Source: a virus. Taken from it: 64,000 nucleotides of DNA. Both the position numbers and the translations under genes were made by a program. This document shows, in pieces, positions 3,102 through 56,226 of the stretch (its first letter is position 1; every line of letters begins with the position of its first letter). A model generated the notes under the pieces. It had not been told where the DNA came from and made no database searches. It was given only the letters and a program-made list of their open reading frames with translations. Location of the stretch: positions 121,438 through 185,437 of IMG/VR virus record IMGVR_UViG_3300034684_000299. One strand, written 5' to 3'.

Positions 3102-3866
3102 ATGCAAATACCATGGCAAGATATCAAAGTTCCAAAAAGATATATTACAGTTAACAAAAAAATGACTGAGAAATTTCCTATATTATGGAAGTTATTTGAA
3201 TATGGAGCTGATGATATTATAGCGGCACAAAAACGATTCAACAAATTATTAATAAAAAATATTTTTGAAATAGGATTAACTGAAGATATGAAATTAGAAT
3301 TTAATTTTAGAGTTGGAGAAGATTTTCTACCACAAAAACTTATGTATTTTGTTAAACCAATATTGAGAAAAAAACCCCTTAAGGATTTCATTGGTGGAAA
3401 ATATACTTTAAATACTGTAAAACCAGAAGATGAAGCAAATGTATTTGAATTTTTTCAAAAATTAAATAGCAAAATTGGTACTAGATATCAACCTTATCAG
3501 AATCAAATAAATGAAATAGTTCAAAATTCTGAATTAGCCAAATTTCTAAAACAATTTCCGAATATTATAAGAATGTATAAATTACAACACAGCGAAATCA
3601 TTAAATATGCTCCTGAGATTGAATTTGTTCAAGATGAGGATTTTTATAGTAATAGTAGAATTTTGAGATTTTATTTTACAGGTTCCATTAATATCCTTAG
3701 TGGCGAAATTAGACATGAGTTGGATGAAAATAAAGACCTTAACGATAGTGAAAGAGAGAAGTATAAAGAACAAGTAAGCAATTGGTGTGATGAAATGGAA
3801 CGAAAAATAACAAAATTGTTGGAAAATATAAAAGAAAGTGATATATTAGATTTATCTGAACTTTAA
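3102..3866 (+). CDS. Family P1 protein (IPW...PKR), unknown function
   Basis: 254 residues starting MQIPWQDIKVPKRY, with FPILWKLF near residue 27, FEFFQKLNSKI near 115, a YAPEIEFVQDEDF block near 172 and a C-terminal DLSEL. SD is AAGGAGGTG. First of three P1 genes in tandem with the same length and spacing (3102, 3893, 4686). It is likely the first gene of the operon that starts after the terminator at 3046. Function not recognised. Confidence 0.85.
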   Translation: MQIPWQDIKVPKRYITVNKKMTEKFPILWKLFEYGADDIIAAQKRFNKLLIKNIFEIGLTEDMKLEFNFRVGEDFLPQKLMYFVKPILRKKPLKDFIGGKYTLNTVKPEDEANVFEFFQKLNSKIGTRYQPYQNQINEIVQNSELAKFLKQFPNIIRMYKLQHSEIIKYAPEIEFVQDEDFYSNSRILRFYFTGSINILSGEIRHELDENKDLNDSEREKYKEQVSNWCDEMERKITKLLENIKESDILDLSEL

Positions 3867-3892: not shown

Positions 3893-4657
3893 ATGCGAAT
3901 ACCTTGGAGAGATATCAAAATACCAAAAAGATATATAAGAATAGATTATAAAACTATCAAGAAATTTCCTGTATTTTGGAAGTTGTTTGCGGATCAAGCT
4001 TATGATATATTTCTTGATAAAAGAATAATAAACAAATTAATGATGAAAAATTTATTGGAAACTGGTCCAAATGAAAATACAAAGTTAGATTTTGCTTTCA
4101 AAATAGATGAAGGTATTACTCCAATAAGACTTGAATTTGAAATGCGTTTACATCCAGAAGATTTAAATTTTCCTTATGTGGATTCACTTCTAGATATTCA
4201 AGGAGTTATTTATGATCCTGACGATGAAATGGAATTGTTTGAATTTTTTAAAAAATTGAACAGCAAAATTAATTCAATGCATCCTTCTTACATTGATAAG
4301 ATAAATGATATATTAAAAAATTCAAAGTTGCAACATTTTATCAAACAAGACGAGAAAATAAATAAACTTCCTGAATTTCAGGATGAAGATTTAACAAAAT
4401 TTGCTCCAAAAATAGAATTTATACAGAAAGGGGATTTTGATGAAAACGGAGAAATGACTTTTTATGCAACGGATTCAATTAATTTACTTAGTGCCAAAAT
4501 AAGAGGAAGATTCATAAACAATTCTAGTTTTTCTAAAGAAGAAGAAGAAAAATATACAGATATAGTTAAAGAAGGATTCGAAGATATAGAGGAACAAATA
4601 AAGGAAATGTTGGAGAAAATAGATGAAAAAGATATGATAGATTTATCTGAACTTTGA
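3893..4657 (+). CDS. Family P1 protein (IPW...PKR), unknown function
   Basis: 254 residues starting MRIPWRDIKIPKRYIRI, followed by FPVFWKLF, FEFFKKLNSKI, FAPKIEFIQKGDFDENG and a C-terminal DLSEL. It is exactly as long as its upstream neighbour, and the 5' ends of the two genes are nearly superimposable, which suggests a fairly recent duplication. SD AAAGGAGGAATATT. No known domain. Confidence 0.85.
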   Translation: MRIPWRDIKIPKRYIRIDYKTIKKFPVFWKLFADQAYDIFLDKRIINKLMMKNLLETGPNENTKLDFAFKIDEGITPIRLEFEMRLHPEDLNFPYVDSLLDIQGVIYDPDDEMELFEFFKKLNSKINSMHPSYIDKINDILKNSKLQHFIKQDEKINKLPEFQDEDLTKFAPKIEFIQKGDFDENGEMTFYATDSINLLSAKIRGRFINNSSFSKEEEEKYTDIVKEGFEDIEEQIKEMLEKIDEKDMIDLSEL

Positions 4658-4685: not shown

Positions 4686-5456
4686 ATGTCAGTTTTGTGG
4701 GGAAATGTAAGAGTACCTAAACGGTATATAAGAATAAATCATCAAACCATCAAAAAGTTTCCTATATTTTGGGAATTGTTTCTGAGCTATATAGACGATA
4801 CATTCCAGAACCAAAACAGACAAAATCAAATATTGCTCAGAAATATGATGGAAATAGGTTTGACAAAGGAAACCAATTTAGACGTTATGTTTGAAAAAGA
4901 TTCAGAAACCTTTTCTTCGAGAGAATTATTTCCAGAGTCAATTAGATATGGAATAGAACCAATAAATGCAAACATACCTTTTGAAGATTTGCCCATCCAT
5001 ACTATGAAATATATGATTGACCACAGAAAAGAGCTAGCTATTCTTGATTTCTTAGAAAAATTAAGTAGAAAAATTGATTCAATAAATGCTATATATCCAT
5101 CAAAGATACAAGGTGTTATATGGAATTCAAATTTGTATAGTATTTTGTCAAAAGTTCCAGAGGACAATTATGAATTGCAAGAAGAAGATATAATGAGATA
5201 TGCACCTGAAATAGAGTTTATTCAGATTGATGATTTTGATGAAGAAGGAAATTTAATATTTAGTTTTAGGAATTTTATTGATGAATTTAATTTAAAATTA
5301 GACGAGTTTATAGAAAGAAATAATAAATTGACAGAATATGAGAAGAGCAATTATAGAATGCAAATAAGAAAGGAATGTCTTAAGATTGAAAAAGAAATAA
5401 AACATATATTAGAAAGATTGGATAAAAATGAAATTATAGATTTATCACAATTGTAG
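4686..5456 (+). CDS. Family P1 protein, divergent N-terminus, unknown function
   Basis: 256 residues. The IPW signature is altered to MSVLWGNVRVPKRYIRI, but the FPIFWELF, LDFLEKLSRKI and YAPEIEFIQIDDFDEEG blocks and the C-terminal DLSQL are retained. It is the fourth family member in the window and the third in tandem. SD AAAGGAGAG. Unknown function. Confidence 0.85.
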   Translation: MSVLWGNVRVPKRYIRINHQTIKKFPIFWELFLSYIDDTFQNQNRQNQILLRNMMEIGLTKETNLDVMFEKDSETFSSRELFPESIRYGIEPINANIPFEDLPIHTMKYMIDHRKELAILDFLEKLSRKIDSINAIYPSKIQGVIWNSNLYSILSKVPEDNYELQEEDIMRYAPEIEFIQIDDFDEEGNLIFSFRNFIDEFNLKLDEFIERNNKLTEYEKSNYRMQIRKECLKIEKEIKHILERLDKNEIIDLSQL

Positions 5457-5471: not shown

Positions 5472-5822
5472 ATGAAAAAGGAAGAATTTAAAAAAATAGT
5501 TGAAAAGAAAGCTGGAGATTTGCGATTTGTAAAAGTTGAAATAGAATTAGACAAGCTAAAGGAAATTGATAATGCAGAGTATCAACGATGGATTCAAAGA
5601 ATTAGTGAGTTCAAACAGTTGGAAGATTCAGGAGAAGAGTTCAAGAAAAATGGAAAAGTTATGTATGAGTTTAATCTGAATGCTTCATCTATTGAGAGTT
5701 GTTTGACTTATTATCAGCGAATGATTCAAAGTGGTGGCATAAAATTTTGGAATTATTTGGATGATGGAGAATTGGATATGTACGCACAAATTCTCAATCA
5801 AACAGAAAATTTATATAACTAA
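5472..5822 (+). CDS. Family P9 protein (xxFKKxV ... FNxW...Y(A)xIL), unknown function
   Basis: 116 residues, SD AAAGGAGG. It belongs to the largest paralogous group in the window (about ten genes). Members share an N-terminal EEFK helix, a (V/I)x(I/V)xxxxLxx(I/L) strand, an xWxxxI helix, a (F/G)xxNGxxxYxF strand and a C-terminal (E/D)xxxWAxIL(x) helix. Here the C-terminal block reads LDMYAQILNQ. No catalytic motif was seen. These are probably small regulators or inhibitors of host functions, which is inference only. Confidence 0.8.
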   Translation: MKKEEFKKIVEKKAGDLRFVKVEIELDKLKEIDNAEYQRWIQRISEFKQLEDSGEEFKKNGKVMYEFNLNASSIESCLTYYQRMIQSGGIKFWNYLDDGELDMYAQILNQTENLYN

Positions 5823-30282: not shown

Positions 30283-31446
30283 ATGTTGAAGACATATAAG
30301 TTTCGTATATACCCAACAGAAGAACAAATTGAGAAGTTGAACCAGCATTTCGGACATACTCGATTTGTATATAACTTGTTCTTAGAGCTTTCAAGCAATG
30401 CATATAAAAATACCAAAACGCATACTAATTACAATGTTTGGGCTAAAATGCTTGTGGCTCTTAAGAAATCCGAAAAGTATAAATGGCTGAACGATGTTAA
30501 CTCTCAATCGTTACAACAATCTTTGAAAGACTTAGATACTGGCTATAAACGTTTCTTTAAGAAGCAGAGTAAACATCCGAAATTCAAGAAAAAAGCGAAT
30601 AGACAATCGTTTAGAGTTCCTCAACATATACAATTGTACGAAAATGAGAGTAACGATAAATACGGTATTCTTTTCATTCCTAAGTTTAAAGAAGGCATTA
30701 AAGTACGTATGCATCGTAAAGTACCTTCTAATGCTAAGTTGAAAAGTTGTACGATTGTTAAAACTACTACAAATAATTACTATGTGTCTATTCTTGTGGA
30801 AACAGATGAAATCGTACCTGTAAGAGATATAGACTACAAAAATTCAATTGGTATAGATGTAGGGCTTAAGGATATGGCAATTTTGTCTAACGGTAAAAAA
30901 TACGAAGTGCTCAAACCATTAGCCAAACTTGAGAGAAAACTAAAACGTGTTCAAAAGAAACTTTCAAAGAAAGTTCTATATTCCAAGAATTGGCATAAAG
31001 CAAAATTAGAGGTGGCTAAAGTACATGAGAAAATTAAGAATACAAGAGAGGATTTTTTACATAAACTAACGAAGGAAATCAGCGAGAACCAAGCTGATGT
31101 CTTTTTCGTTGAGACTCTTAATATAAGTGGCATGTTAAAGAATCATCATTTAGCTAAAAGTATCTCAGATGTAAGTTGGTACAAATTCAAGACGTTTCTA
31201 AAATACAAAGCAGAGAGGTTAGGTAAGAAGGTAATCGAGATAGGAATGTTCGAACCTTCGTCTAAGATTTGTAGTGTTTGTGGATATAAGAACAAAGATT
31301 TAGAACTCTCTGATAGAGAATGGATATGTCCTGAATGTGGTACCAAACACGATAGAGATATAAATGCCGCTATCAATATTAGACAGTTTGGAATAGATAA
31401 ATATACTTCCAAACCATCGAAAGAGTTGCAGTTAGTTCCTGCTTAA
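30283..31446 (+). CDS. tnpB: TnpB, RNA-guided nuclease of an IS200/IS605-family element
   Basis: 387 residues, intact. The N-terminus (MLKTYKFRIYPTEEQIEKLNQHFGHTRFVYN) is the standard TnpB opening. RuvC residues are visible as GIDVGLKD (Asp192), VETLNISGM (Glu277) and DRDINAAINI (Asp357/Asp359). The zinc ribbon has Cys330, Cys333, Cys349 and Cys352 (CSVCG...CPECG). TnpB cuts DNA guided by an omega-RNA made from the element's right end, which is also present here. No tnpA transposase is adjacent, so the element is non-autonomous or immobile. Base composition is similar to its neighbours. Confidence 0.95.
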   Translation: MLKTYKFRIYPTEEQIEKLNQHFGHTRFVYNLFLELSSNAYKNTKTHTNYNVWAKMLVALKKSEKYKWLNDVNSQSLQQSLKDLDTGYKRFFKKQSKHPKFKKKANRQSFRVPQHIQLYENESNDKYGILFIPKFKEGIKVRMHRKVPSNAKLKSCTIVKTTTNNYYVSILVETDEIVPVRDIDYKNSIGIDVGLKDMAILSNGKKYEVLKPLAKLERKLKRVQKKLSKKVLYSKNWHKAKLEVAKVHEKIKNTREDFLHKLTKEISENQADVFFVETLNISGMLKNHHLAKSISDVSWYKFKTFLKYKAERLGKKVIEIGMFEPSSKICSVCGYKNKDLELSDREWICPECGTKHDRDINAAINIRQFGIDKYTSKPSKELQLVPA

Positions 31447-33613: not shown

Positions 33614-33637
33614 GTGCGTTTTTTGCACAGAATATAA
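33614..33637 (+). CDS. Putative seven-codon leader peptide (MRFLHRI)
   Basis: GTG CGT TTT TTG CAC AGA ATA TAA, with an ideal SD (GGAGG, spacing five). Its stop overlaps the ATG of the 33637 gene (TAATG). It also forms the GTGC/GCAC hairpin between that SD and the downstream ATG. Either the leader is translated and ribosomes restart at TAATG, or the hairpin brings the SD near the ATG. Confidence 0.45.
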   Translation: MRFLHRI

Positions 33638-34995
33638 TGGAAGAAAAATTATTAAAATTAGCTTCAAATGTTGAACTTTACCAATACGACAGACCGATTG
33701 GTCCTGGTCAAGGAGCAGAAGATTATTTATCTTATCAATTAATGAAACAAAAACAAGAAGAAGATAGGAAAAAAGCCAGAAAAGAAGGGAGAGGTGTCGC
33801 TATAGCAACTGGAGCAGGATTAGGAGCTTTAGCATCGTTGATAGCTAGAAAACCATTAGGTTTGGATGCACTACCAAATAAAATGCAAGCTGGACTAATA
33901 CTAGGTGGAGCTGGCGAAGGTGCTATCGCAGCAGGAATTCCTTATGCAGTTGGAAGGACGAGTGAAGAAAGAAAATACAAAAAGTTAGAAAAGAAAGGAG
34001 CAGATATTGAAGGCACTTATACTCCAGTTAATTATGAATTAACACCTGAACAATATGAGGCGTTGCAAAAAGAGCAAGAACGATTAGTAAAAAAGGTATC
34101 AAGAGCTAATATATCGGGAGCGGTAGGAGCTGGTGCCGCAACTGCAGCTGGGTTAGCAGCTTTAATAGCTGGTAAAAATTTGAAAACAAAAACTCCAAAA
34201 GAATTAGGAAAATATTTTGCAACTTCTGCAGGTGCTGGTGCTGCAGCTGGATTAGCTGGGAACATAGGGGGATTAGCTGCCGCTACTTCAACTGCTAAAA
34301 AGGAATTAGATAAAAAAGCTGAATTGTTTAATGCGGGAGTTAACTATGCACTAAAACAAGCTGAGTTAACACCTGCTGAAGAAAGAAAATTGCAACAAAT
34401 GCAAGCAGAATATTATCAAACAATGAGCGATCTCGAAAGGAGATATTACAATAGATACCAGGAAGAAAAAAGAAATGTAGAAAAGAAACAAATGGCTAAG
34501 AACTTAGGTGCTGGTGCTTTAACAGGAGCTGCTGTGGGTTCAACTGTTGGGTTAATTGCTACACCTAAACCAAATAAAATGTCTGGGACGGCTAAAGGTG
34601 CTATTGGCGGAGCCGCTGTTGGAACTCTTGGTAGATATGTGGGTGAAAAGGTTAAAAAGGGTAAAGAGCAAAAAGTAATAGACGAAATAGCATACACTAA
34701 AGCATTGCAAGGTGGTAATCCTTACAGCCCAGAATATGACTTAGCATTAATGAGATATACTAAAAATGCATCTGATAATACGGAAGATATATTAAAAAAA
34801 AGAGCTAATTTTTTTAAAGGGGCTTACAAGAATTTAAGTCAATTCATGAATCAAGTAAAAAAAGATATATTGAGTACTTCTGATGGAAGTATAAAAAAAA
34901 ATAAAATAAATGTTGAGGAACCCAAAAGTATACGTCAGACTAACAAAAAGATAACCGAAGATCAGGTTAAAACACAGCCTCAAGCTGGAATGTAA
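33637..34995 (+). CDS. Glycine/alanine-zipper protein, probable virion or membrane-active protein
   Basis: 452 residues. The N-terminus (MEEKLLKLASNVELYQYDRPIGPGQG) is a degenerate form of the tag found on late minus-strand proteins. Glycine-zipper hydrophobic segments follow: ATGAGLGALASLIA near 55, GAVGAGAATAAGLAAL near 155, SAGAGAAAGLAGNIGGLAAAT near 195 and GAGALTGAAVGSTVGLIA near 290. Charged helices separate them, including LFNAGVNYALKQAELTPAEERKL near 235. Such repeats can form membrane-inserting helices in ejected internal proteins. It is the only gene of this kind on the plus strand. Its SD lies 27 bases upstream of the ATG. Confidence 0.75.
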   Translation: MEEKLLKLASNVELYQYDRPIGPGQGAEDYLSYQLMKQKQEEDRKKARKEGRGVAIATGAGLGALASLIARKPLGLDALPNKMQAGLILGGAGEGAIAAGIPYAVGRTSEERKYKKLEKKGADIEGTYTPVNYELTPEQYEALQKEQERLVKKVSRANISGAVGAGAATAAGLAALIAGKNLKTKTPKELGKYFATSAGAGAAAGLAGNIGGLAAATSTAKKELDKKAELFNAGVNYALKQAELTPAEERKLQQMQAEYYQTMSDLERRYYNRYQEEKRNVEKKQMAKNLGAGALTGAAVGSTVGLIATPKPNKMSGTAKGAIGGAAVGTLGRYVGEKVKKGKEQKVIDEIAYTKALQGGNPYSPEYDLALMRYTKNASDNTEDILKKRANFFKGAYKNLSQFMNQVKKDILSTSDGSIKKNKINVEEPKSIRQTNKKITEDQVKTQPQAGM

Positions 34996-35226: not shown

Positions 35227-36282
35227 TTATATTTTTAGTTCATTCGGTTCTATACTATCATATTCTATTCCAGCAAAGCAATTAAGAATAGCTTCAAAAA
35301 TAATCTTTGCTCCTTGACAAGGTACTGCCATTCCTATTTGTTTTCGCACACTCTCTTTTGTCCCAAAGAAAACATACGTATCCGGGAAAGTTTGAAGTCG
35401 AGCTCTTTCTCTGTTTGTTAAAGCTCTAGGCTCTGACCAGTGATACATATGAGTTCCTCCACCTCCACTACCAGTAACTGTATAAGCGGGTTTATTTGGG
35501 TCCAATCTCTTATAAATTTGGCTTATTTTTGCACCTTTTACTTTTAATTGAAGCTCTGGAGGAAGATTAGCTGTAAAAGCATTTTCCCCGGGCTTAATAT
35601 GAAGAAGCCTTTGTATTACAGTTTCAGATTGTTGGGTTCTTTCATTGTTTGGAGCATCCGCAGGTATTGGAGGCACTTCAAGTGCAGTACGACATGTATT
35701 ATCAATATTTGCATAAGGGGCAGGGGATGGCACTTTAAAAGTTACATTTATATCATTTCGAATACCTACAATAATAATTCGGTGTCGTGACTGTGGTATT
35801 CCATATTCCTCAAATTTATATAAATGTGGAGTAATTGTATACCCGGCTTCCTGTAATTCATTCAGTATTTTTGTAAAAGCTTTTCCGTCATTGGCATTAC
35901 GAAGTCCACCTACATTCTCTGCAAGGAACCACATAGGGCGAAACTTTTTCAATGCTTTAACTCCATAAGAATATAACGGTCCAAAAACTCCGTTAATTCC
36001 TTTCTGTTCGCCAACTATACTAAAATCATTGCATGGGAAACCGAATGCCAAAGCATCAATTGGAGATAATTTATCCATATCTAGTTTGCGAATATCTTCT
36101 TGATAAACTGTTTCTGGATTGTTTGGACAAATATTGTAGCGATATGTTTTACAGGTATCTTCATCGTAATCACTAGCCCATTCATGGACTATAAAATGCT
36201 GTCCGTCAGCACTGGTGGCATTTATAGCGCCGTAAGCAAGTCCTCCAGGTCCACAGAATAATTCACCTAATCTATATTTCAT
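35227..36282 (-). CDS. C5-cytosine DNA methyltransferase
   Basis: 351 residues. Motif I is LFCGPGGLAYG (8-18). Motif IV is FGFPCNDFS (80-88) with catalytic Cys84. Motif VI is ENVGGL (122-127), motif VIII QSRHRIIIVGIR near 163-174, and motifs IX-X are TNRERARLQTFPD...IGMAVPCQGAK. The target-recognition region between VIII and IX is short and includes GSGGGGTHMYHW. It methylates cytosine C5 in an unknown site. No restriction enzyme gene is adjacent. The gene is less AT-rich than its neighbours and is framed by two copies of a promoter-hairpin unit, which suggests a transferred cassette. An extended -10 (TGTTATAAT at about 36322-36330) gives it its own promoter. Confidence 0.93.
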   Translation of the reverse strand: MKYRLGELFCGPGGLAYGAINATSADGQHFIVHEWASDYDEDTCKTYRYNICPNNPETVYQEDIRKLDMDKLSPIDALAFGFPCNDFSIVGEQKGINGVFGPLYSYGVKALKKFRPMWFLAENVGGLRNANDGKAFTKILNELQEAGYTITPHLYKFEEYGIPQSRHRIIIVGIRNDINVTFKVPSPAPYANIDNTCRTALEVPPIPADAPNNERTQQSETVIQRLLHIKPGENAFTANLPPELQLKVKGAKISQIYKRLDPNKPAYTVTGSGGGGTHMYHWSEPRALTNRERARLQTFPDTYVFFGTKESVRKQIGMAVPCQGAKIIFEAILNCFAGIEYDSIEPNELKI

Positions 36283-37616: not shown

Positions 37617-38534
37617 TCAAAAGTTTCTAATAATTAATTCATTAATTTCTCCTCGTTTGTTTGGGTCACTGTTGATAGATCTCTTTGCTTTTATTCTCTC
37701 TATTGTATATCCAGCATATAACTCTTCAAAGAAATTATCGTCTGGGTTTGTATTCTTAGGATCAGAATTACTCAACAACAAATATGCCCCTTTCTCATCC
37801 ATTCTTTTAAAGAATTCTGCTAACCTTTTTTGCTCATTATCATCAAATACATCGTTACTATAATTATTAAAATTTGATGTAGTATTCAATGGACGATAAG
37901 GTGGGTCTAAGTATACTAACGTATTTTCCTTTATATATTTCTCACTTTGTTCAAAATCACCACAAATAATTTCTGCTTTTTGCAATGCTTTACTGGCAGC
38001 TAGCAATTCGTCAACATCATAAATATTACGTTTCTTATAAGTACCCATAGGCACATTGAATTCACCATTTTTATTCACTCTATACAATCCGTTGAAACAT
38101 GTTTTGTTTAAGAAAATAGTATCAGCAGCTCTTTGAATCCAAGATTCACTAAACTTTTCGTAATCAAAATTATTTCTTTCCTTATTGTACCTGTCTCGGA
38201 TAAAATAATAATAAGCTTCAACATCGGCATAAGGTGCTTCGTTGTATATAGAATTATACATACTCAACAAATCAATTAATTTTGAAACGTTGTGTTTGAC
38301 GACTTTATAGGTTAAAATAAGATCTTTGTTGATATCTAACAAATAGTATTGTTTGATGTTGGTGCTATTTCTTAACATAAAGAAGAAAGCACCTCCACCC
38401 AGGAATGGTTCTACATATCTATTTATCTTTTTCACTGGAACCCTTTTATACAATTCTTCTAATATTTGAGTTTTACCACCAGCCCAATGTAGAAATGGTT
38501 TTGCTAAAACAAATTGATTGAATAAAGTATTCAT
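37617..38534 (-). CDS. dam: N6-adenine DNA methyltransferase, Dam/D12 class
   Basis: 305 residues from the ATG at 38534; the GTG at 38543 overlaps the SD (AAGGAGG). Motif I is FLHWAGGKTQIL near the N-terminus with VEPFLGGGAFFF. D12 signatures NKTCFNGLYRVNKNGEFNVPMGTYK and motif IV LVYLDPPYRPL are intact. It methylates adenine N6, probably in a short palindrome such as GATC (inference from family). No restriction partner is adjacent. Transcribed with the late module from its far end. Confidence 0.93.
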   Translation of the reverse strand: MNTLFNQFVLAKPFLHWAGGKTQILEELYKRVPVKKINRYVEPFLGGGAFFFMLRNSTNIKQYYLLDINKDLILTYKVVKHNVSKLIDLLSMYNSIYNEAPYADVEAYYYFIRDRYNKERNNFDYEKFSESWIQRAADTIFLNKTCFNGLYRVNKNGEFNVPMGTYKKRNIYDVDELLAASKALQKAEIICGDFEQSEKYIKENTLVYLDPPYRPLNTTSNFNNYSNDVFDDNEQKRLAEFFKRMDEKGAYLLLSNSDPKNTNPDDNFFEELYAGYTIERIKAKRSINSDPNKRGEINELIIRNF

Positions 38535-38597
38535 AGTAAACACCTCCTTATAACTTAATTATACACTTTTTATCAGTCTTTTCTACTACAAAAATGT

Positions 38598-38658: not shown

Positions 38659-39255
38659 CTATTTTTTCTTAAGATAATCATAAGCATCTGCTGACGACAT
38701 GTTCATAACCATAGTTCGTTCTTCTGGTGTTAATTTTTCTATTTTCCTTTGTAATTCATAATTTTGTAATTTTGTACCAAGATAATATCCTAATCCACCT
38801 GCAGTTGCACCTATTGCAGAACCTAAAGCAACAGATGGACCTAATACTTGTTTTGTTTGATATTTCATACTTGTATTTGTCTGTTTAGCTCTTGTGGCAC
38901 CTGAAAGTGGAGCTGAAAGCACTCCTGCAATACCTCCAAGAATTCCCATGTCAACAGCACCTTCAATAGCCTGTTGATATCCATAGGGTTTATGCTTTTC
39001 GATATAATCAGATACTTGCATAGTAGTAGGAGGTAATGGTTTAGCTGTAGATAGCCATTCTTCTTCTGTCATTGTTCCACTTTGTTTGATTTTTTGCAAT
39101 TCACGATTATATTCCTCAATAGCAAGTTTATTAGCTTCTTTAGGAGTATATCCTTGGTTCAAATATTTCACTTGCAAACTGGCTAACATTTTACCTCGTT
39201 TTGTCCCAATATTATCCTCTGAAGCCGCTGTCTTAATAAATTCGTCACTTATCAT
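38659..39255 (-). CDS. Tag-type glycine-zipper protein 1
   Basis: 198 residues. The N-terminal tag is MISDEFIKTAASEDN. A charged region follows, then glycine-zipper segments GILGGIAGVLSAPLSGAT near 105 and GSAIGATAGGLGYYLGT near 145. The C-terminus ends LTPEERTMVMNMSSADAYDYLK. The N-terminal tag and C-terminal block recur in the neighbours. This layout fits a virion-internal or membrane-active protein, which is inference. A TACATTTGTTATC motif lies just upstream. Confidence 0.75.
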   Translation of the reverse strand: MISDEFIKTAASEDNIGTKRGKMLASLQVKYLNQGYTPKEANKLAIEEYNRELQKIKQSGTMTEEEWLSTAKPLPPTTMQVSDYIEKHKPYGYQQAIEGAVDMGILGGIAGVLSAPLSGATRAKQTNTSMKYQTKQVLGPSVALGSAIGATAGGLGYYLGTKLQNYELQRKIEKLTPEERTMVMNMSSADAYDYLKKK

Positions 39256-39278
39256 TTTATTTTCCTCTCCTTATTGTA

Positions 39279-39293
39279 GATAACAAATGTATT
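39279..39293 (-). promoter_or_regulatory. Repeated late intergenic motif (variant)
   Basis: AATACATTTGTTATC on the minus strand upstream of the 38659-39255 gene. Confidence 0.45.
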
Positions 39294-39303
39294 CTATTAA
39301 AAA

Positions 39304-39720
39304 TTAAATATTCAATAAATATTGATATACTTGTTCAGGTGGCAAATTCATTAATTGATCTCTAGCTTGATCTGAAAGTCTGTTCAAATTATATAAAATT
39401 CTATTTTTTATTTTCTTTTCATAAGCTTTCTGTCCAGCGTATCCCGCAAGCCCACCTATAGCAGCACCAGCTATAGCAGCTCCAGGGGCAACAGTGCCTA
39501 CAACTTTACCAGCTCTGGCTGCAGCTGTGTCTCCAGGCATATTTTTATTTAAGGCACCGCCTGCTGCTCCACCTATAAGACCTGACAATCCCCCCATTGT
39601 AGCTCCAGTAGCAGCTCCTAAAGCACCTGCAGCACCACTAGATGATGGCAAATATGGTGATAAATAATTCAAAACTTCTTCTGAACTTGCGGCTGTTTTA
39701 ACAAATTCATTTCTTATCAT
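39304..39720 (-). CDS. Tag-type glycine-zipper protein 2
   Basis: 138 residues. Tag MIRNEFVKTAASSEE; a long glycine-zipper region GAAGALGAATGATMGGLSGL (from about residue 30), then GTVAPGAAIAGAAIGGLAGYAG; and the C-terminal block LSDQARDQLMNLPPEQVYQY. This is the clearest three-part example (tag, zipper, LPPEQ tail). SD AAGGAGGAAATGAA. Confidence 0.75.
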   Translation of the reverse strand: MIRNEFVKTAASSEEVLNYLSPYLPSSSGAAGALGAATGATMGGLSGLIGGAAGGALNKNMPGDTAAARAGKVVGTVAPGAAIAGAAIGGLAGYAGQKAYEKKIKNRILYNLNRLSDQARDQLMNLPPEQVYQYLLNI

Positions 39721-39735
39721 TTCATTTCCTCCTTT

Positions 39736-39891
39736 TTATCTCAAATTATAATAATAATATTCTTCCTCATCTTGCAAACTAAGAAATGGAAACCGAGTAT
39801 ATTGCATTGAACTAAGTTCAACTTCTGCATACGTTCCTTCTTTAGTTAACTCCAAAAAAGTCAAAATATCTTTTTCTTTTTCCTCTAACAT
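39736..39891 (-). CDS. Small acidic protein in the tag cluster
   Basis: 51 residues from the ATG at 39891 (AAGGGA, spacing about five); the in-frame TTG at 39921 lies in the repeated TACATTTG motif. LEEKEKDILTFLELTKEGTYAEVELSSMQY, then a tyrosine-rich end (EEYYYYNLR). It lacks the tag. Unknown. Confidence 0.6.
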   Translation of the reverse strand: MLEEKEKDILTFLELTKEGTYAEVELSSMQYTRFPFLSLQDEEEYYYYNLR

Positions 39892-39913
39892 ATATATCCC
39901 TTCTTTATCTACA

Positions 39914-39930
39914 GATGACAAATGTATACC
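39914..39930 (-). promoter_or_regulatory. Repeated late intergenic motif
   Basis: GGTATACATTTGTCATC on the minus strand upstream of the 39736-39891 gene. Confidence 0.5.
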
Positions 39931-39935
39931 TTTTT

Positions 39936-40142
39936 TTATTCTTCAATTGTTGGAGTTTCAGCTGCTATAGTGCTCATACTCTTAGTTTTAGCGTTTTCTA
40001 ACAAGATCTGATCAGCTAACTTGTTTGCTTCTTCTAAAGATTTGCCTTCAAGCAATAATTGATTGACTATCTGCCTGTGCTCTTCGTTTCTGTTAGGATA
40101 TATGTCTTCTTGAGAGGTTTTCATAAATAAATCTTTTAACAT
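39936..40142 (-). CDS. Small tag-type protein
   Basis: 68 residues starting MLKDLFMKTSQEDIYPNR, a variant of the tag. The rest is a helix (QIVNQLLLEGKSLEEANKLADQILL) similar to the YTPKEANKLAIEEYN segment of the 38659 protein. It has no glycine zipper. SD TGGAGGAATATAA. Confidence 0.65.
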   Translation of the reverse strand: MLKDLFMKTSQEDIYPNRNEEHRQIVNQLLLEGKSLEEANKLADQILLENAKTKSMSTIAAETPTIEE

Positions 40143-40180
40143 TTATATTCCTCCATTCTCTTATCTTTGTCTATCCAAAT

Positions 40181-40196
40181 ATAACAAATGTATACC
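40181..40196 (-). promoter_or_regulatory. Repeated late intergenic motif
   Basis: GGTATACATTTGTTAT on the minus strand upstream of the 39936-40142 gene. Confidence 0.5.
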
Positions 40197-40199
40197 TTT

Positions 40200-40328
40200 T
40201 TATTTATTAACCAAACCAGTTCCGTCTGCTCTACCCTGTCCAGGGCCTAATCCTCTGCCATGAGGACCTGTTCCGTCCCAGGGCCTAACCCTGCTTGTGC
40301 TGTTTTTTTTAAATAGATCTCTTAACAT
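40200..40328 (-). CDS. Tiny glycine-rich tag-type protein (42 aa)
   Basis: Starts MLRDLFKKN (tag variant), followed by a run rich in G, R and P (RPWDGTGPHGRGLGPGQGRA). SD CGGAGGTGCAAC. The glycine-rich part resembles the GPxGxGPxxGRGxG pattern of DUF5320-like small proteins and also the IGPGQG stretch in the 33637 protein. Too short for most ORF callers. Confidence 0.6.
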   Translation of the reverse strand: MLRDLFKKNSTSRVRPWDGTGPHGRGLGPGQGRADGTGLVNK

Positions 40329-40379
40329 GTTGCACCTCCGTTTTTTTCTATTTGTATGCGTAATTAAAGTGCCTTTAAC

Positions 40380-40856
40380 TTATGTTCTTGCATATTTTGG
40401 ATTTGTGGCTTGCAAATATTTAATTAAACTCTTTTTTTGTTCTTCTGGTGGTAACTGAAGTATACGTTTTAATTCTTCTTCAGGAATATTTTGAATAGCC
40501 TTTTTAAAATCTTTATTTATTTGGTTTTCAATAACTTTTTTACCTGCTAAGACACCTAAATTACTTCCCAAATAACCTGCTCCGGCTCCTACTAATGCAC
40601 CCGCTCCCATTTGAACAGGATCTATTCTACCGGGAATCGAACCACCAGGAACTACTTTAGCAGGAATTACTCCTTGATGAAGAGCACCTATTAAAGAGCC
40701 AAAGGCTGTTCCTGTTGCAATAGCAGATTTTTTCTTTCCTGGAAACAATTGATCAAATTCTTTCCATGTAGGATCGAATTTGACATTCTCATAATATGCT
40801 TGCTGTTCTGGGGTTAAATTGACTTTTGCTGTTTTAACAAATTCGTCTCTTACCAT
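40380..40856 (-). CDS. Tag-type glycine-zipper protein 3
   Basis: 158 residues. Tag MVRDEFVKTAKVNLTPEQQ; zipper segments ATGTAFGSLIGALHQG near 50 and GAGALVGAGAGYLGSNLGVLAG near 85; C-terminal block IPEEELKRILQLPPEEQKKS. Expressed from the extended -10 promoter at 40899-40907. Confidence 0.75.
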   Translation of the reverse strand: MVRDEFVKTAKVNLTPEQQAYYENVKFDPTWKEFDQLFPGKKKSAIATGTAFGSLIGALHQGVIPAKVVPGGSIPGRIDPVQMGAGALVGAGAGYLGSNLGVLAGKKVIENQINKDFKKAIQNIPEEELKRILQLPPEEQKKSLIKYLQATNPKYART

Positions 40857-40898
40857 ATTTTTCTCCCCTTTGTTTTTTAAGTAATATAATTCGATTTA

Positions 40899-40907
40899 AT
40901 TATAACA
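40899..40907 (-). promoter_or_regulatory. Extended -10 promoter (TGTTATAAT)
   Basis: Minus strand CCACATGTTATAATTAA. A 17-base block around it is identical to the one at 63641-63657 upstream of another late gene. Confidence 0.6.
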
Positions 40908-40984
40908 TGTGGATTAAACAATAAAAGTAAAAGTGGCTTTTGAAAGATTAAAAAATACCTTGTTATTAAGGAAATTTGTAATTA

Positions 40985-41111
40985 GGTAGTGGGGTAATGG
41001 CGCTACCGTGAACTAGTATTCACTATACTGGTTCATTGACCTTGGAGAAAGACTCCAAGCGACCATCAGAAAAGGCCGAGAAGAGGAAATTAGTCCTCTT
41101 CTCTTTTTTTT
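40985..41111 (+). ncRNA. Candidate plus-strand structured RNA with intrinsic terminator
   Basis: It lies in a 433-base gap between two minus-strand genes. Successive hairpins are GGTAGT/GCTACC (40985-41007), an 11-base stem TGAACTAGTAT/ATACTGGTTCA (about 41009-41035), CTTGGAG-aaaga-CTCCAAG (about 41041-41059) and a terminator GAGAAGAGGA/TCCTCTTCTC with eight T residues (41078-41111). The terminator orientation shows plus-strand transcription. A weak promoter (TTGAAA, 18 bases, TATTAA with TG upstream) lies at about 40938-40967. No ORF. Family not recognised. Confidence 0.65.
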
Positions 41112-41147
41112 ACAAATTTGAATAGAAAGAAGTAATTAAATAAAACA

Positions 41148-41172
41148 CTCTGCCTTAATTGGCAGAGCTTTT
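41148..41172. terminator. Bidirectional terminator
   Basis: CTCTGCC-ttaatt-GGCAGAG with CTTTTTG on the plus side and TGTTTTATTT on the minus side. It ends the minus-strand transcript of the 41290 gene. The rest of the gap (41173-41289) holds only a repeated TGTAGTGACA string at about 41204 and 41276. Confidence 0.7.
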
Positions 41173-41289
41173 TGCTTTTCCTTTTTTTTACTCTGTAGTG
41201 ACACTTTTTGTTTATCCTCTCCTAAGAGAGTACAAAACGAAATTGCTATTAAATCTATATTGCTGTTTTTCGGGGTGTAGTGACATTTT

Positions 41290-41616
41290 TCAGTAGAGGT
41301 TTCTCATTATGTATCCAAAAAAAGAGGCTTCGTTCTTGTTAAGATATTCTTCCATAGCTTCTTTTGCAACATCAGGAGGCATTTGTAATAGCTTCCTAAC
41401 TTCATCATCAGGTAGAAGATCTATCAATGAATCTATGGATTTTTTGTTGAATTTCATATCTAATACTTCCATCTCATAAGAATTTGGTTTCTTGCTTACA
41501 TCAGTAACAAAACTATATTCGTAAGGGTTCCGCGCTTTGAGTATGTGGTTCTTTAGCTTTTTTCTATCATCATTGAATATCCCCATGCCAATTTTAATAA
41601 ATTCATCCTTTATCAT
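41290..41616 (-). CDS. Tag-type protein without glycine zipper
   Basis: 108 residues. Tag MIKDEFIKIGMGIF, a charged middle (DDRKKLKNHILKARNPYEYS), and C-terminal block LPDDEVRKLLQMPPDVAKEA. The tag and tail are present without a hydrophobic zipper between them, which argues that the two end motifs are independent modules. SD AGGGGAGAACGAAA. Confidence 0.75.
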   Translation of the reverse strand: MIKDEFIKIGMGIFNDDRKKLKNHILKARNPYEYSFVTDVSKKPNSYEMEVLDMKFNKKSIDSLIDLLPDDEVRKLLQMPPDVAKEAMEEYLNKNEASFFGYIMRNLY

Positions 41617-51645: not shown

Positions 51646-52344
51646 TTATGAAAGGTAATCTTTAAAATCTTTTTCGACATCTTTCTTCAATTTATACAAT
51701 TCGTTGTAATCTTTGTTCATTTCTCTTGCTATGTTCATTAAACTTTGTTTAGTTTCACCGTTCAATCCATACAGTTTACTTATTAACATTTCTCCATCGG
51801 CACCATATTTGCTCCTTATATATTGTAGAGCTTCCATTATTTCTAAATTTTCATTGCCATACAACTTATTGAAAGCATCAGCTGACTCCAACACTACGCC
51901 GCCCATTTGTCTTTTAAACGTTTCTATTTTTTTTGGTTCCCACGATAACTCATCAGATAATTCTAAAACAGTAGGTTCACGATCTTTTTTGTATCTCAAA
52001 TCGTTATATGCCTGTTGAAATGTTGAAAACTCAAGGTTATAATTTTCTGGTAACCTCAACATACCTTGATTATCGTTGACAAACCTATTCATTTTTTGTA
52101 AATATTGATTCACGTATGTTACTACTCCGCCTTTTGAAGAGTTATAATTTTCTAGAGCTTGAGCTATTAACTTTCTTGCTTCTAAATCCAATGCAATAGA
52201 ACTTATACCTGAATTCTTATATTTTCCTATACTATAACTGACATAAGGCTTGAGTTTTTGATATATTTTTGAAAATGTTTCTGGATCTTTAGTCTTTTTC
52301 CATTCCTCAACTAATCGAACTAACTCAGGATCGGGTGCTGGCAT
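51646..52344 (-). CDS. Sigma-70 family RNA polymerase sigma factor, phage type
   Basis: 232 residues. A WKKTKDPETFSKIYQKLKPYVSYSI opening and ALENYNSSKGGVVTYVNQYLQKMNRFVNDNQGMLRLPENYN fit sigma region 2 (the AL.YDPs.g..f.TYv...L...R pattern). LRYKKDREPTVLELSDEL fits region 3, and LISKLYGLNGETKQSLMNIAREMNKDYNELYKLKKDVEKDF fits region 4 with its helix-turn-helix. No N-terminal region 1. It directs host RNA polymerase to phage promoters, probably late ones. It lies inside the structural operon, so its expression would be self-reinforcing if it recognises late promoters. SD GGAGGGGACAAC. Confidence 0.85.
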   Translation of the reverse strand: MPAPDPELVRLVEEWKKTKDPETFSKIYQKLKPYVSYSIGKYKNSGISSIALDLEARKLIAQALENYNSSKGGVVTYVNQYLQKMNRFVNDNQGMLRLPENYNLEFSTFQQAYNDLRYKKDREPTVLELSDELSWEPKKIETFKRQMGGVVLESADAFNKLYGNENLEIMEALQYIRSKYGADGEMLISKLYGLNGETKQSLMNIAREMNKDYNELYKLKKDVEKDFKDYLS

Positions 52345-55968: not shown

Positions 55969-56202
55969 TCATTTTCCATTGGTTCTTGCTTTAACCACGG
56001 CATCTCTGATACTATTTGTTAAAGCTGTTAATCCCAAAAGACTAACTGCACCAACAGTGCTGCCAAAACTTCCAATAGCTTCTCCAGTTGCTAATACACC
56101 TTGCCCTACCTTTTTTGCTCCTGTTTGAAGTGATTTGCCAATATTTATTTTACTTTTTTGGATTTTCATAGCTGAAGTTTTCTCAAATTCGTCTCTCAAC
56201 AT
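55969..56202 (-). CDS. Tag-type protein in the tail operon
   Basis: 77 residues from the ATG at 56202; the upstream in-frame GTG overlaps the SD (AGGAGTG). Tag MLRDEFEKTSAMKIQ, then a hydrophobic glycine-rich segment (GQGVLATGEAIGSFGSTVGAVSLLGLTAL) and a basic end. Important because it shows that the tag also occurs 15 kb away from the tag cluster. Confidence 0.75.
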   Translation of the reverse strand: MLRDEFEKTSAMKIQKSKINIGKSLQTGAKKVGQGVLATGEAIGSFGSTVGAVSLLGLTALTNSIRDAVVKARTNGK

Positions 56203-56226
56203 ATTTATTTTCACTCCTTTGTAAAA

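Follow-up and report, generated by a model that had tools for sequence, protein, structure and literature searches.

The window, a 64,000-nucleotide stretch forming the last 64 kb of the 185,437-base IMG/VR virus record IMGVR_UViG_3300034684_000299, contains a group of late genes whose otherwise different proteins share a short N-terminal tag. Positions refer to the window unless marked "genome", which denotes the whole record, where 206 genes were called with a simple purpose-built caller on which all gene starts rest. The seven tagged starts are on the minus strand, each preceded by a Shine-Dalgarno-like sequence.

The tags comprise MISDEFIKTA (39226..39255) on a 198-residue protein (38659-39255), MIRNEFVKTA (39691..39720) on a 138-residue glycine-zipper protein (39304-39720), MLKDLFMKTS (40113..40142) on a 68-residue charged protein (39936-40142), MLRDLFKKNS (40299..40328) on a 42-residue protein (40200-40328), MVRDEFVKTA (40827..40856) on a 158-residue glycine-zipper protein (40380-40856), MIKDEFIKIG (41587..41616) on a 108-residue protein (41290-41616), and MLRDEFEKTS (56173..56202) on a 77-residue protein (55969-56202). 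For the last, an ATG with AAAGGAG upstream is favoured over a longer GTG start at 56214. The 42-residue protein consists of the tag and a Gly-rich DGTGPHGRGLGPGQGRADGTG tail, with nothing else. Beyond the limits of the window, an eighth member is encoded at genome 90829-91068 (MLKKEFEKTSETA).

The tag combines a header, M-(I/V/L)-x-(D/N)-(E/L)-F, with an end of the form phi-x-K-x-A/S/G (phi, hydrophobic), whose last residue occupies the P1 position of a putative cutting site; this residue is Ser in the tags starting at 40142, 40328 and 56202 and Gly in that starting at 41616.

The tag is conserved as a peptide

The strict pattern M[IVL][RKS][DN][EL]FxK, reported in an earlier note at starts 39255, 39720, 40142, 40328, 40856, 41616 and 56202, is present at all seven, against 0.0008 expected from composition among the called genes. 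A looser pattern is seen nine times, against a shuffle mean of 0.12 and a maximum of 4 in 5000 shuffles. The protein bodies behind the tag are unrelated for most members, so that a short N-terminal sequence common to unrelated proteins of one phage, as in the T4 type, is found in these seven window genes. At identical tag residues 67% of codons are the same, compared with 58% expected from codon usage, and the DNA upstream of the starts differs between members. These differing codons and upstream sequences place conservation at the level of the peptide; the tag is neither a chance occurrence nor a recent copy. Pfam and PHROG searches with the window cargo proteins returned only weak glycine-zipper or holin-like matches.

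The earlier note had also read a degenerate tag at the start of a 452-residue protein on the plus strand (33637-34995). This protein begins with MEEKLLKLAS (33637..33666), which carries the cut-site half (MEEKLLKLA-S) and no header. An early-region group with the N-terminus MKxxEFKK was rejected as a tag family, since its shared start does not finish in the motif and its members are probably paralogues; starts of this kind occur in window genes at 5472, 6625, 10259, 19779, 25276 and 25757.

The motif ending the tag is enriched in head modules

The head module, located at approximately genome 63-83 kb, encodes the portal, major head protein, head maturation protease, and terminase. Its genes 48-66 contain 37 phi-x-K-x-A motifs versus 6.4 in shuffles, and the other modules of this genome, including tail and late, stand at or near expectation. 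In six core-like proteins there are 41 sites versus 5.2 expected. One site-rich gene away from the head module (genome 35093-36901) has 12 sites, and its counterpart in the related genome G001 has 14. A DUF6582 protein (genome 65981-67057; L005:5981-7057) carries 10 sites. Several relatives encode site-rich proteins of comparable size, and DUF6582 may therefore belong to a prohead core protein.

The same enrichment extends to 80 related viral loci collected through protease alignment, in which gene functions of uncultured relatives were assigned by sequence alone. Around the protease, hydrophobic-x-Lys-x-A occurs 2329 times versus 530 (4.4-fold), with other residues in place of Lys reaching at most 1.24-fold. 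When Lys is kept constant, enrichment at P1 is 4.3-fold for Ala, 1.6-fold for the next best residue, and 1.0-fold for Ser, which was therefore rejected as an equal P1 residue. When gapped patterns are counted without preselection, L.K.A (808 versus 116) and M.K.A (279 versus 37) deviate most. The site favours Leu, Met, Phe or Ile two residues before Lys, Glu directly before it, and Ser, Glu or Ala immediately following the site. In the capsid protein, a site lies within the first 80 residues in 64 of 74 loci, ahead of the conserved N-arm, and in the model of this phage's own capsid protein, which adopts the HK97 fold, it falls at a helix break.

A motif match at the start of an HU-like protein (genome 109199-109474, MNTKETIEKIAS), which we take to be native HU sequence, was set aside as a false positive. 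In Mycobacterium phage I3 (L034, gp102-105), phi-x-K-x-A (9 versus 3.0) and phi-x-R-x-A (12 versus 4.7) are both mildly enriched, a hint that mycobacteriophages may use a variant of the code built on basic residues.

A gp21-like protease is the candidate processing enzyme

The protease (genome 76848-78275) matches the PHROG head maturation protease family at 5.8e-8. Its AlphaFold2 model (mean predicted local distance difference test score, pLDDT, 81) has T4 gp21 (5jbl) as its best PDB match, with a probability of 1.00 and an E value of 1.5e-3, and the predicted structure is that of the gp21 fold. His95 and Ser147, the putative catalytic residues, do not vary among the 32 sequences compared. 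Among solved relatives sought by sequence, the capsid profile matches phage G gp27 (6wkk), and the protease profile gives no match. A scan of genome contigs for the protease returned 0 relatives.

The protease domain is flanked on either side by K-x-A sites in the protein of this phage, in those of Salmonella phage Arash, Vibrio phage D181 and L014, and in Bacillus phage G gp19, as expected of self-processing; candidate sites are present in protease, capsid, and core proteins alike. The enrichment in head modules, the capsid N-terminal sites, and the sites flanking the protease domain together point to phi-x-K-x-A as the probable cutting site of the prohead protease. Placing the cut after Ala is a guess taken from where the motif ends.

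Other lineages carry other headers with the same end

The tag families of relatives were sought by a motif-blind procedure, in which the N-termini of non-paralogous proteins were clustered per genome. The families recovered are MKYFEKxA/S in G004 (nine genes), MIxDEFxKTA in G001 (seven genes), MLKxLGFxKxA in G006, MNxRAYLxKxA in G007, and M(S/T)NxYLEKxA in G013, each ending in the head motif, along with MIKTAxQIAxxTLxKMA in G012; clustering of G005, G008, and G009 gave no clear family. Tag families and motif therefore recur in relatives, and by this clustering the header varies by lineage and the end stays constant. A tag-like NxYLQKAASL is also present near the C-terminus of N-tagged proteins (G013 100099-100644 and 117011-117388; L084:13867-14235).

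The cargo behind the tags appears modular. In G001 each half of the 38659 protein is encoded by a tagged gene of its own, and a tail similar to the Gly-rich tail of the 42-residue protein ends a tagged 84-residue G001 protein, which suggests that modules are shuffled behind the tag. G001 counterparts of the 41290, 55969, and 33637 proteins start with MINDEFIKTA, MIHDEFIKSA, and MKSLTKMAS, respectively. In other relatives, an SNF2/Helicase_C protein follows MRYFEKNA (L104:5994-7349), and a protein with a weak LigT-like phosphoesterase match follows MSTRTYWELMTKRA (L096:8001-8537).

The C-terminal ends form two pairs

Four of the tagged proteins had been described in the earlier note as sharing a single C-terminal block. 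The blocks, all on the minus strand, are LTPEERTMVMNMSSADAYDYLKKK (38659..38733) and LNRLSDQARDQLMNLPPEQVYQYLLNI (39304..39387), which pair with each other, and IQNIPEEELKRILQLPPEEQKKSLIKYLQ (40380..40496) and LIDLLPDDEVRKLLQMPPDVAKEAMEEYLNK (41290..41427), each with following residues, which form the second pair. The 40380/41290 tails score 71 against 23 +/- 5 in shuffles and the 38659/39304 tails 42 against 19.5 +/- 3.8; scores across the two pairs are 20-34, mostly inside the shuffle range. One G001 gene matches both 38659 and 39304, which, with the between-pair scores, gives the tail the look of local duplication. The relatedness of the ends thus stands within each of two pairs, probably local duplicates, and a four-way C-terminal code was rejected.

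A capsid-targeting propeptide is the most probable reading of the tag

We interpret the shared N-terminus as a T4-like capsid-targeting propeptide, composed of a lineage-specific header and a prohead-protease site, with a probability of about 0.7. The header would probably attach to a prohead-core component, loading otherwise unrelated late proteins into the prohead. The gp21-like protease would then recognise the phi-x-K-x-A end; its other substrates during maturation would be the capsid N-terminus, the protease itself, and core proteins. Once the tag is removed, the mature cargo would stay in the head and be delivered into the next host; targeting by the header, and presence of the cargo in virions and its ejection, are what we infer from these features. 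One suggestion of the earlier note had been a capsid-targeting peptide cleaved by a prohead protease. Its N-terminal half is well backed by the enrichment of the tag-ending motif in this phage's own and 80 related head modules, by the gp21-like protease, and by the other tag families of relatives that end in the motif; the C-terminal half of the proposed modular system finds no support other than the two pairs of duplicates.

Several observations weigh against this interpretation. Of the seven window tags, four have Ser or Gly at P1; head proteins show no enrichment of Ser at this position, and some tags may therefore escape cutting. The window tagged genes adjoin a tail-fibre-like gene, far from the head module. 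Nearness of tagged genes to the head protease gene, considered as general support, holds in G004, G006, G007, and G013 and fails in G000, G001, and G012, where they lie far from it. Beyond the tag, the tagged G000 and G001 proteins contain one site versus 3.9 expected, a depletion that is not significant. In Arash, virion proteins are not predicted by a bare phi-x-K-x-A among their first 16 residues (4/8 detected, P = 0.54); with the first 45 residues and at least five peptides the association reaches P = 0.006, in a set that includes head core proteins and after four settings were tried.

A first alternative is that the tag is a cleavage site and nothing more, with the proteins reaching the head otherwise and the header being incidental or a remnant of an ancestral start. 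The motif is the part common to all lineages, headers differ, and the 33637 protein carries a site without a header, all as this explanation would have it. It is nonetheless unlikely, because headers are kept within a genome across unrelated proteins, even where Ser or Gly at P1 departs from the cut consensus, and because the codons of the tags differ.

Highly unlikely, in turn, is an unprocessed peptide by which the proteins dock to a partner in the tail, the neck, or elsewhere in the virion, and whose likeness to the head motif would be partly coincidence. Such a peptide would suit the late location by the tail-fibre-like gene, distant from the head module, and the tags off the cut consensus; against it, the G004, G006, G007, and G013 families lie near the head protease and end in the head motif, and the tail and late modules lack motif enrichment. 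Paralogy or a nucleotide element such as a ribosome-binding or translation-start signal is barely credible: the two pairs of C-terminal ends do indicate that local duplication occurred, but tag residues are kept while upstream DNA and codons differ, bodies are unrelated for most members, and the tag recurs at distant loci in G000 and G001.

Comparison with known head-targeting and processing systems

The propeptide reading draws on T4, where the first 10 residues of IPIII are enough to gain entry to the head; targeting depends on residues 4 and 7 and processing on residues 8 and 10, with Asp at the latter position preventing cutting and leaving targeting intact (PMC9026906). As in T4, a propeptide of ~10 residues, here putative, stands on different proteins, which here are predicted to be internal; its end may be a prohead-protease site, but four of the seven window tags depart from the motif at P1. 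The protease has a predicted gp21 fold. The window tags also fit the two-part logic of targeting and processing, and the header persists where P1 is Ser or Gly, as would be expected of a targeting element. In contrast, the proteases of T4, phiKZ, 201phi2-1, and SPN3US cut after Glu (PMC5694885), whereas the predicted cut here follows K-x-A, with Ala at P1, and would represent a different specificity. No T4-like header is apparent, and several headers are distributed across lineages, with about 4-9 tagged genes per genome. Targeting in T4 was demonstrated with IPIII fusions; for the tags described here it is predicted.

In phage P1, an N-terminal signal on DarB similarly takes the protein, and a reporter, into the head (PMC9024508). 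Compared by description, that signal belongs to at least one large protein, unlike the short tag on many small unrelated proteins here. According to the available sections of the accounts of SPN3US, phiKZ, and 201phi2-1 (PMC5694885, PMC10052503), one protease likewise cuts capsid, portal, itself, and ejection proteins; in the same sections most propeptides are long, with two short ones spanning 20-24 residues, the sites, unlike those proposed here, have Glu at their end (A-x-E in SPN3US), and a genome-wide family of short tags is not described. Salmonella phage Arash and Vibrio phages D181, D148, and D69 have a homologous protease and capsid protein, and the phi-x-K-x-A sites recur in their capsid and core-like proteins. 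Unlike this phage, Arash has no clear N-terminal header family, and its published proteome gives no cleavage sites.

Putative packaged polymerase and neighbouring genes

Arash virions contain the RNA polymerase subunits gp206 and gp216 and the sigma factor gp10 (PMC10585845). A 2611-residue protein of this phage (genome 37684-45519; L003/L004) is related to both subunits, and a sigma-like protein (51646-52344) to gp10. With relatives of three Arash virion proteins encoded here, this phage may package RNA polymerase.

Beside the tagged cluster, the products of 35227-36282 and 37617-38543 resemble, by eye, DNA cytosine and adenine methyltransferases. The proteins of 30283-31446 and genome 107480-108640, which both begin with MLKTYKFR(I/L)YP, resemble TnpB-type proteins. 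Four early-region paralogues share an IPW-x-D-x-x-x-PKRYI-like start (859-1659, 3102-3866, 3893-4657, and 4686-5456).

Implications for head cargo in large phages

The ejected head proteins of large phages usually come to light only through proteomics on purified virions, and for most of them the function is unknown. The odds are about even that a large clade of ~140-210-kb phages uses one prohead-protease code, phi-x-K-x-A, with each lineage's own header as the head-cargo address, in which case header and site would list packaged and injected proteins from sequence alone, including enzymes such as the SNF2-type helicase and the LigT-like protein. No description of such a header-plus-K-x-A code was found in the open-access papers searched. 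If it exists, ejected head proteins would become predictable in uncultured phages, as would candidates for early takeover or counter-defence. A further consequence would be a prohead-protease specificity not ending in Glu, and the lineage-specific headers would constitute a set of short targeting peptides.

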